40,471 nt of DNA. Origin: Kiritimatiellales bacterium. Its GTDB lineage: Bacteria; Patescibacteriota; Gracilibacteria; Peribacterales; Peribacteraceae. The stretch spans positions 1-40,471 of the forward strand of contig JAIPIN010000004.1 of the NCBI GenBank assembly GCA_021734665.1, given 5' to 3'. Under the pieces are notes generated by a model. That model did not search any database, was not told the origin of the DNA, and worked only from the letters and a program-made list of their open reading frames with translations. Within the stretch, counting starts at the first letter, position 1. Each line of letters begins with the position of its first letter. The position numbers were made by a program, and so were the translations under genes. This document shows, piece by piece, positions 31,432 through 34,411 of the stretch.

Positions 31432-32012
31432 TTAAATATCTCTATTTCCCCACTTTTGCGGATTTCGTGCAATATATGCTCGAATTCGGTTTAAATCGAT
31501 TTCGCCTCTTACTCGATGCTCATAATAATTTCGACTTGTGGTGAGCCTATCGAACCATGCCAAACTTTGGCTCCGGACGAATCCCTTAATTCATTTATTC
31601 TTTTCGCCACGGCGGATTTAAATGACCCAATAATTATGGGCAATGAATTTGGAATTGGCTTTCCAAAATGGCGGGACATGGATCGCGCGGGGGCGGCGGC
31701 ATGCCATTGTACGGGCGCGGATTTTCGTCGTAGGGGCACGGCATGCCGTGCCCCTATCCAAATAATTCCATGCATATGATTTGGCATCACAACAAATCGA
31801 TCCAATATAACATTCGAAAAATGATCGGAAATTTCAATCCATTTTTGCATAACAACCTCCCCACACTCATTCAATTTCATTATCCCATTTACAACTTCTC
31901 CAAAAATACATTCATTATTTACTGCATTAATCGTCACAAAATAAATCCCATTCATATATGAATGATTCTTTAAACGAACCGAACGTCTATTTGGCAAATC
32001 AATTTTCATCAT
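31432..32012 (-). pseudogene. REP-associated tyrosine transposase (RAYT, Y1_Tnp/HUH family), frameshifted
   Basis: NGIYFVTINAVNNECIFGEV...RFVVMPNHMHGIIW (HUH) ...SFKSAVAKRINELRDSSGAKVW, then a shift of frame to RNYYEHRVRGEIDLNRIRAYIARNPQKWGNRDI*. Confidence 0.88.
31731..31756. repeat. perfect 26-bp palindrome TAGGGGCACGGCATGCCGTGCCCCTA within the RAYT ORF
   Basis: Self-complementary by inspection; preceded by G to give GTAG at 31730-31733. Confidence 0.95.
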
Positions 32013-34411
32013 CCTTTTAAAACTTTGAATGCCATAAGGAATCCAGAAGTACACACTCCGCCAATAATCATGATCACCTCAACAATTGAAATCGGTGGAA
32101 GTGTGGCAACATCGCGCTGTGACCCTACTTCAATTGTTTCATTGGATAACGGCTCCTCAATCAAAAGGTTCGCAAACAACGCCCCTGTTAACACATCTTC
32201 CTCCGCCTCAACCTCATCTTCGTGCACAACATTCACATATTTTGTTTTAAGTGTAGGCAGAGGCTTTGCCTGCATCGGCTGAATCGAATCAGCAACAGGC
32301 TCTTGTTCCACTTGCTCCCGCACATCTAAATGTTCCACCGGACAAACATTCTTCTTCCCAGGTGTCGCCTTTTCCGTTACGCAATAAGACCCACCTACGC
32401 TCTTTGAGCTTCGGCGGGCAGGAGAAGCAGGCTCTCCCGCCAGTGTGACCACTGCACTATCCCGCACAGCACCGCCAGCTGCTGATACGAGGCCATGACC
32501 CATACGGCGAGAGAGCCCGCTCCTCAGAGAATAGGAATAATCTTTTTTTATTTTTGGATACGTTACGCCAATTTCAAACTCCCCCTCTGGCGATACAAGC
32601 CACACCTCATCCCCACCATTATTTAATGCAATACCTGTTTCATCTTTTGTAAGAACCAAAAAACCATGCGGAGCGATATCAAACTCTTCCGAGATTGTCC
32701 AATGTTTACTCCCGCCATCACGCACATCATCCAATACCCATCCACAAAGATTAAAACGCTTATCGGTTAGATTTAAAAGCTCAATCCACTCTTCTCCATC
32801 GCTTGGTGCAGGGAATATTTCCGAAATGATTACACCAGAAGAAACCGTTGGAATACATACAGAATCTTCTGTGTCCGCAGGTGGGAACACCTGCTCCTGA
32901 GTTAATGCTTGAGTTTCCTCTTCTTCTTCCTTTATCTCCTTTTCATCTTTTATCTCTTTTACCTCCTTCTCATCAATCTTCTCCCCTCTCACCTGCACCA
33001 ACAACGTCTCCCTCAACCCCATAGAACAATACGTATCCACCAACAACTCAATCGTATACTCCCCCACTTCATCAAAAGTATGCGACGTCGGATTGCATCC
33101 ACTTACTATTTCTCCATCACCGTAGTCCCATCTGCACTCTGCACTATCCAATGATCCTTCTTTAACTTCTGCAATCAAGTTGACTGAAAGTTTTTCACGT
33201 CCCCACACATCCCCAGATTGCATCACAATCATAGGGTCTAATTTCTTAAACGAGTTAATACTCCCAGGAGTTGGAATACAAAATGCAGTTAATGTTTCCG
33301 GATCCTGTGGATCTCTCCCAAAACTTACTTCCTCCGCAGTTTGTGCATACTCCAAAGAATCAATCAGTTCAGATCCATACCAAAGCTCTATAGTGTCACC
33401 CTGATTTCTAAGAGAAATATCTGTCTGCGTTTTACGCAAAGCAATCGCATGCAAAGCATCTAACATATAGTCATTAGAAATTTGATATTCACTACTCCCC
33501 TTCTTCAAAATCAAACCGTTTAAATTAACTGTTCCAGTTCCAAAGTTCATCAGCTCTATCCATTCTTGATCATCACGCCCAATGGGATTGGCTAATATTT
33601 CTGTAATTAAGATAGGAGGAAGAACAATGGGTTCGGGGTCGGGTTCGGGTTCGGGCTGAGGGTCGGGTTCGGGTTCGGGTTCGGAATTGGGGAACCACGG
33701 TGTTCCAAAAATCTCTAATCCATCATCGAATCCAACACAATCAGTTGAGCTTCTCCAATTAGATTCATCAGTACCAGAAATATTCGTATCAATCCTTTCC
33801 ATACTTGCTTTGGCTCCAGTACCAGATGGATTATTCCCTGCAAAAGGAGCACCACTACCATCATCCACTTCATCAACAAGAGCACCGCTGGCATTACGCA
33901 AACGCAGAAGTAACTTAGAATTCGGTAAACTCACAGAGCTTGTTACTAGATCGGGCTCATTTTTCAAACGTGAATTTGAACTGTTGTAATTGCTAATTAT
34001 AAAAAATTCATCTGACTGAATACTTATATCATCAAATTCAATCATCAAAACTTCTGCTCCATCTTTTATATAATTTAGTGTCCACTTATCAAGTACCACA
34101 TCATCGGAATCTGTATTTATCAATTCAATCCACTCATCCGCTGTACTTAAGTCTGAACCCATCCACATAAGCTCATTTATTACAATTTGAGCAGAGGTTT
34201 GCCTAGGCAGAATCAATCCTGCTAATAATGTAATAACAACTAATATGGCCAAACGAAGATGATTCTTTTTAAAAACAATTTTTCCATATCTCCTCTCCAC
34301 CTCAGAAGGGGGAGAGGATGGGAGAGGGGCCTTAGATACATATCTAAACAACTTCATACTAAGAAAAGAGTAACCATAAAGTTCTCTATCAAAACAGATC
34401 ATTGACCTCAT
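32009..34411 (-). CDS. secreted/anchored protein with three lamin-tail domains and a PKD-like domain
   Basis: IVINELMWMGSDLSTADEWIELIN, ILITEILANPIGRDDQEWIELMN and GVIISEIFPAPSDGEEWIELLN are LTD motifs; CRWDYGDGEIVSGCNPTSHTFDEVGEYTIEL is PKD-like; C-terminal TM. True start may be downstream of 34411. Confidence 0.85.
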   Translation of the reverse strand: MRSMICFDRELYGYSFLSMKLFRYVSKAPLPSSPPSEVERRYGKIVFKKNHLRLAILVVITLLAGLILPRQTSAQIVINELMWMGSDLSTADEWIELINTDSDDVVLDKWTLNYIKDGAEVLMIEFDDISIQSDEFFIISNYNSSNSRLKNEPDLVTSSVSLPNSKLLLRLRNASGALVDEVDDGSGAPFAGNNPSGTGAKASMERIDTNISGTDESNWRSSTDCVGFDDGLEIFGTPWFPNSEPEPEPDPQPEPEPDPEPIVLPPILITEILANPIGRDDQEWIELMNFGTGTVNLNGLILKKGSSEYQISNDYMLDALHAIALRKTQTDISLRNQGDTIELWYGSELIDSLEYAQTAEEVSFGRDPQDPETLTAFCIPTPGSINSFKKLDPMIVMQSGDVWGREKLSVNLIAEVKEGSLDSAECRWDYGDGEIVSGCNPTSHTFDEVGEYTIELLVDTYCSMGLRETLLVQVRGEKIDEKEVKEIKDEKEIKEEEEETQALTQEQVFPPADTEDSVCIPTVSSGVIISEIFPAPSDGEEWIELLNLTDKRFNLCGWVLDDVRDGGSKHWTISEEFDIAPHGFLVLTKDETGIALNNGGDEVWLVSPEGEFEIGVTYPKIKKDYSYSLRSGLSRRMGHGLVSAAGGAVRDSAVVTLAGEPASPARRSSKSVGGSYCVTEKATPGKKNVCPVEHLDVREQVEQEPVADSIQPMQAKPLPTLKTKYVNVVHEDEVEAEEDVLTGALFANLLIEEPLSNETIEVGSQRDVATLPPISIVEVIMIIGGVCTSGFLMAFKVLKG

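Follow-up and report, generated by a model that had tools for sequence, protein, structure and literature searches.

The window – the whole 40,471-nucleotide stretch of DNA analysed here – carries on its minus strand, at 31509–32054, an open reading frame of 181 aa that by its sequence is a RAYT, or REP-associated tyrosine transposase (tnpA_REP), whose C-terminus is truncated by a frameshift. The assignment draws on the reading frame itself, on identity to homologues and on the NCBIfam model REP_Tyr_transpos (NF047646). The window ORF matches this model with E=1.1e-5 and 25 bits, under the curated cut-off of 80; 28 of 28 aligned homologues also match it, and the best RAYTs of same-family genomes are 42–47% identical to the window ORF. 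A Pfam search with the window protein gave no match. The HUH motif, MPNHMH, is encoded at 31770–31787 and is followed, after a linker, by an FKSAV motif at 31608–31622, both on the minus strand.

The catalytic-tyrosine module, RNYYEHRVRGEIDLNRIRAYIARNPQKW, was located by tblastn with RAYT proteins from many phyla at 31450–31533 (minus strand). It includes YIARNP, the Y---NP catalytic tyrosine motif, and does not share the reading frame of the N-terminal part: of the 36 RAYT queries used, nearly all place it in a different frame, past an insert of about 23 nt at 31534–31556 (minus strand). This frame-shifting insert contains TTCGATAGGCTCACCACAAG and is related to one of the family's dispersed repeats; its 13-mer TTCGAYARGCTCA is such a repeat, found in 50 of 57 family genomes, with the reversed control almost absent. 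As far as the sequence can be read, the window RAYT is probably a damaged member of its kind, a pseudogene, which the frameshift has very probably made inactive and whose palindrome, described below, would then be a relic. In-frame TGA codons were seen in RAYTs of same-class genomes, which suggests a Gracilibacteria-like placement for the window genome.

Upstream of the gene, at 32101–32128 (minus strand), lies half of a GTAG palindrome that is possibly a decayed flanking REP, a weak candidate represented by half an element with 9 of 14 pairs left. Its left arm, GTAGGGTCACAGCGCG, is the same as that of the internal RAYT palindrome of locus L008, and it is read in frame near the C-terminus of an 800-aa upstream ORF (EVGSQRDVATLPP).

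Within the linker, between MPNHMH and FKSAV, lies what is probably a 28-nt double-foot REP unit (31730–31757, assigned to neither strand), delimited by its sequence, its fold as single-stranded DNA and comparison with homologous linkers. Pairing is perfect over the inner 26 bp only, the palindrome TAGGGGCACGGCATGCCGTGCCCCTA at 31731–31756. The GTAG foot is intact at 31730–31733 on the plus strand, which is the non-coding strand of the RAYT gene, and the partner foot is CTAT rather than CTAC; one foot of the element is thus decayed. The sequence-only reading had described a perfect, GTAG-led palindrome translated as GARHAVPLR between the HUH and SFKSAV regions. Its placement and translation are confirmed (the peptide lies within IGARHAVPLR), as are the perfect 26 bp and the reading frame, with the amendment that GTAG stands on the non-coding strand and faces an altered partner. 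It had also pointed out a second GC-rich patch beside the palindrome. As a candidate for another hairpin this patch was rejected: it forms no stem, and its best stem score is 4.

As single-stranded DNA, the fold that the same reading had called for, the palindrome does form a hairpin, with 11 bp, a 4-nt loop and z = -3.16. TAGGGGCACGGCATGCCGTGCCCCTA did not arise in any of 100 dinucleotide-shuffled versions of the window, and searches for an intrinsic terminator and for an Rfam RNA gave no match. In the window genome (an assembly 82.7% complete), no second copy was found at ≤3 mismatches, although some relatives have repeated copies; what makes the window palindrome REP-like is its form and its context rather than its copy number. 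With only one copy present and the RAYT out of frame, activity cannot be seen in this genome. The exact 26-bp palindrome also occurs in four IMG/VR contigs (L216–L219). The window holds a second perfect palindrome at 145–176, TTATTAACATATTTGCGCAAATATGTTAATAA, which is 32 bp long and A+T-rich.

The linker palindrome is a recurrent feature of related genes. Taking as near-perfect any palindrome with a stem score ≥10, a loop ≤8 and ≤1 mismatch, we found one in 80 of 108 linkers of same-class RAYT genes, a set compiled automatically that includes a few doubtful members (e.g. the second ORF of L001 and that of L112). Shuffled linkers gave 2/324, equal windows upstream of HUH 2/108 and equal windows downstream of FKS 1/92. 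A scan of GTDB representative genomes contributed 80 RAYT loci from many phyla, as judged by record title, to which five RAYT relatives from viral contigs were added; two loci gave no linker and two an extra unrelated ORF, and 85 candidate linkers were scored. Fifty of these 85 carried a near-perfect palindrome, compared with 3/425 shuffles and 2/84 equal windows upstream of HUH; throughout, loci were counted without phylogenetic thinning, and p-values overstate independence. About a quarter of the same-class linkers and 40% of the cross-phylum ones have no palindrome at this threshold, a point against the explanation preferred below. Chance as the origin of the palindrome was ruled out by the shuffles of the window and of the same-class and cross-phylum linkers.

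The reading frames and the pairing of these palindromes show a constraint on the DNA (or RNA) rather than on the protein. Of the palindromes with a GTA foot, 78 measure 28 nt and 22 measure 29 nt; the foot is read as GTA|GGG in 73 cases and as xGT|AGG in 27, while the frame that would give a TAG stop is never used. It might be supposed that the linker encodes a conserved protein motif whose codons are palindromic by accident, and peptides such as GARHAVPL and RGTACRAPT do recur. Yet these two peptides come from an identical palindrome read in two frames, as IGARHAVPL in the window and as RGTACRAPT in L009 and L159. Likewise, the arms vary widely while remaining paired: among 67 distinct 28-mers, which were selected for near-pairing and not for diversity, inner positions show up to four Watson–Crick pair types, and GTAGAGAC is another palindrome type among subclass-2.4 RAYTs. 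On the frame data and the diversity of pairing, the protein-motif explanation was excluded, its probability being negligible. The sequence-only reading had named, as the result that would count against it, a conserved protein segment in distant RAYTs without a palindrome in the DNA; the opposite was found, in that palindromicity is conserved across phyla and the protein sequence is not.

Palindromes beside RAYT genes resemble those inside them. For 130 RAYTs selected for an internal stem ≥10, a flanking palindrome was present upstream in 42 and downstream in 31. At ≥85% identity, the upstream one matches the gene's own internal palindrome in 29 of 42 cases, against 1.9% for the internal palindromes of other loci, and the downstream one in 16 of 31, against 1.5%. 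The internal palindrome also co-diversifies with the enzyme: across 86 genes, similarity of the RAYT core (with the linker removed) correlates with similarity of the palindrome arms (Pearson r=0.40, 0/2000 permutations), although shared descent alone could yield part of this correlation.

Dispersed copies were examined in the genome G100, which was read whole (1,073,675 bp). It contains 24 GTAG-foot palindromes, compared with 0–2 for each of six unrelated control feet; the TAGG foot gives 15, because TAGG is nested in the same elements. One sequence, GTAGGGAACGCAGATCTGCGTTCCCTAC, occurs there in seven copies, of which two lie in RAYT linkers, one is flanking and four have no covering ORF of ≥100 codons; another internal palindrome type has one dispersed copy. 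Across genomes, 52 of the 94 with a RAYT match show the GTAG palindrome pattern, as do 15 of the 196 without (Fisher p = 2e-18), with counts that consist in part of the copies inside and beside RAYT genes. Four genomes (G030, G033, G058 and G008) have 5 to 10 GTAG palindromes each and a negative RAYT search; their RAYTs are possibly lost or more distant. For the family, then, the match to flanking REPs, the covariation with the RAYT and the dispersed copies in G100 all favour, at the level of sequence, the earlier suggestion that the gene may contain its own substrate.

In the structure predicted for the L159 homologue (161 aa, mean pLDDT 89), the linker is a flexible loop of low confidence (pLDDT about 60) that joins the HUH strand to the helix after it. 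Of known folds, this model best matches 4er8, in which a RAYT is complexed with a REP hairpin; the IS200/IS605 transposases 2xm3 and 2vjv come after it.

We therefore consider it very likely that the window palindrome is a double-foot REP residing in a subclass-2.4-type RAYT gene, of the kind that the RAYT of this lineage recognises and spreads; more generally, the internal palindrome is the probable cognate double-foot REP of the RAYT that carries it. RAYTs of other groups that have been studied attach to REP hairpins in single-stranded form and cleave close by, and GTAG steers recognition or the choice of cleavage site (PMC8266576). By analogy, the enzyme would contact both the stem and the GTAG foot of the single-stranded hairpin and nick the DNA close to it. 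The RAYT of the lineage would most likely use the hairpin that its gene contains, and the copies that flank the gene or are dispersed would be of this kind too. One copy sits inside the gene, in the surface loop that leads from the HUH strand to the following helix; this loop would tolerate both frames free of the TAG stop, and the copy diversifies together with the RAYT.

The persistence of near-perfect arms may owe something to homogenisation by template switching, through which stems are known to arise and to be repaired (PMC8794818). Mirrored flanks extending ≥4 nt past the feet were found for 8 of 100 linker palindromes (expected 0.39) and for 9 of 64 others (expected 0.25), expectations that assume equal base frequencies. 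Such flanks would suit template switching during replication.

GTAG palindromes also lie in frame in other genes of relatives. They were seen near position 1500 in L034, L036, L038, L039, L048 and L050, six loci whose host genes comprise HMG-CoA reductase, DnaG, a dehydroquinase–shikimate dehydrogenase fusion, an HhH-GPD (MutY-like) glycosylase, EPSP synthase and TsaD. By eye, the palindrome-flanking DNA forms an inverted repeat a few bases off the feet in L034 (1470–1560, HMG-CoA reductase; ACCGATACACGC/GCGTGTATCGGT) and in L050 (1470–1550, TsaD; GCGCCATT/AATGGCGC). In L035, the palindrome is near the N-terminus of an ORF that, by eye, resembles RNase III.

Why a copy stays in the transposase gene is a separate question, and the answers to it overlap in confidence because each is compatible with the cognate-REP explanation of what the copy is. 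One answer, which we rate as slightly more likely than not, is that the linker is a permissive landing site: REPs would enter many genes and persist in a tolerant loop, without function, their arms maintained by template switching. The in-frame REPs in housekeeping genes of relatives fit this answer, as do the excess of mirrored flanks, the documented ability of template switching to make and mend stems (PMC8794818) and the flexible loop of the model. It has to contend, however, with the concentration of palindromes in RAYT genes, which hold 6 of 25 in G100 while making up about 0.4% of the genome, and with the emptiness of equal windows elsewhere in the same genes; tolerance alone would need to be extreme.

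Alternatively, and more tentatively, the internal REP could be a functional cis element under selection, which the RAYT binds in its own gene or mRNA, either for autoregulation or as a tag that matches enzyme and substrate when the gene moves between genomes. This adds to the cognate-REP explanation selection for the internal copy. It would agree with the co-diversification of palindrome and enzyme, with the presence of the palindrome in many phyla and with its being commoner inside than beside the gene, a comparison made on the 130 RAYTs chosen for an internal palindrome. Linkers without a palindrome in otherwise intact-looking RAYTs count against it, and there may be other reasons why decay is slower in a coding region than in its flanks.

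Internal REPs have already been described as a distinctive trait of TnpA_REP subclass 2.4, and as unique to it (Quentin 2018, PMC6006769). This subclass, equivalent to Bertels group 4, has motifs of the NHxH, WQ and YIxxNP type – the consensus of our homologues – together with flanking and double-foot GTAG...CTAC REPs (PMC6006769). The window gene shares its in-frame REP between the HuH and Y motifs, and sets NHMH, WH and (out of frame) YIARNP against the NH[IFV]H, WQ and YIxNNP of the subclass. Unlike other members, the window copy is frameshifted, has one decayed foot and is accompanied by no other REP copy in the assembly; flanking REPs are present in relatives, whereas the window has only the decayed half element upstream. 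The gene is thus a damaged further example of a published trait, to which the counts, the frame rule, the co-diversification and the mirrored flanks may add detail.

Other systems resemble this one in part. GTAG REPs inside genes (Di Nocera 2013, PMC3733652) and Rickettsia palindromic elements are likewise short in-frame palindromes, but they occur in varied genes and are ascribed to insertion, whereas here the palindrome is a standing feature of one site in a transposase gene. IS200/IS605 TnpA shares the HUH/Y1 fold, as the matches to 2xm3 and 2vjv illustrate, and the recognition of hairpin DNA, but it has its hairpins at the ends of the element and not within the transposase gene (PMC6006769). 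GTAG-footed REP hairpins are also used by E. coli TnpA_REP and by group 3 RAYTs, which bind and cleave single-stranded REP (PMC8266576), but these REPs are of the single-foot type. A narrow literature search returned no earlier report of in-frame palindromes in Patescibacteria.

The present comparison shows the regularity of the internal hairpin across many bacterial phyla, an example of a protein-coding gene shaped by a constraint at the level of DNA. Since each such RAYT gene bears what is probably its own REP, enzyme–substrate pairs become readable from sequence, including in genomes where no REP family can be recognised, and the specificity and co-evolution of RAYTs and REPs become directly testable with dozens of natural pairs. 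A bolder proposal, which we put forward as no better than a possibility, is that subclass-2.4 RAYT genes carry their cognate REP as a selected, built-in tag whose arms are renewed by template switching; if this is true, such a tag, serving self-recognition or autoregulation, would keep the specificity of enzyme and REP matched through horizontal transfer.
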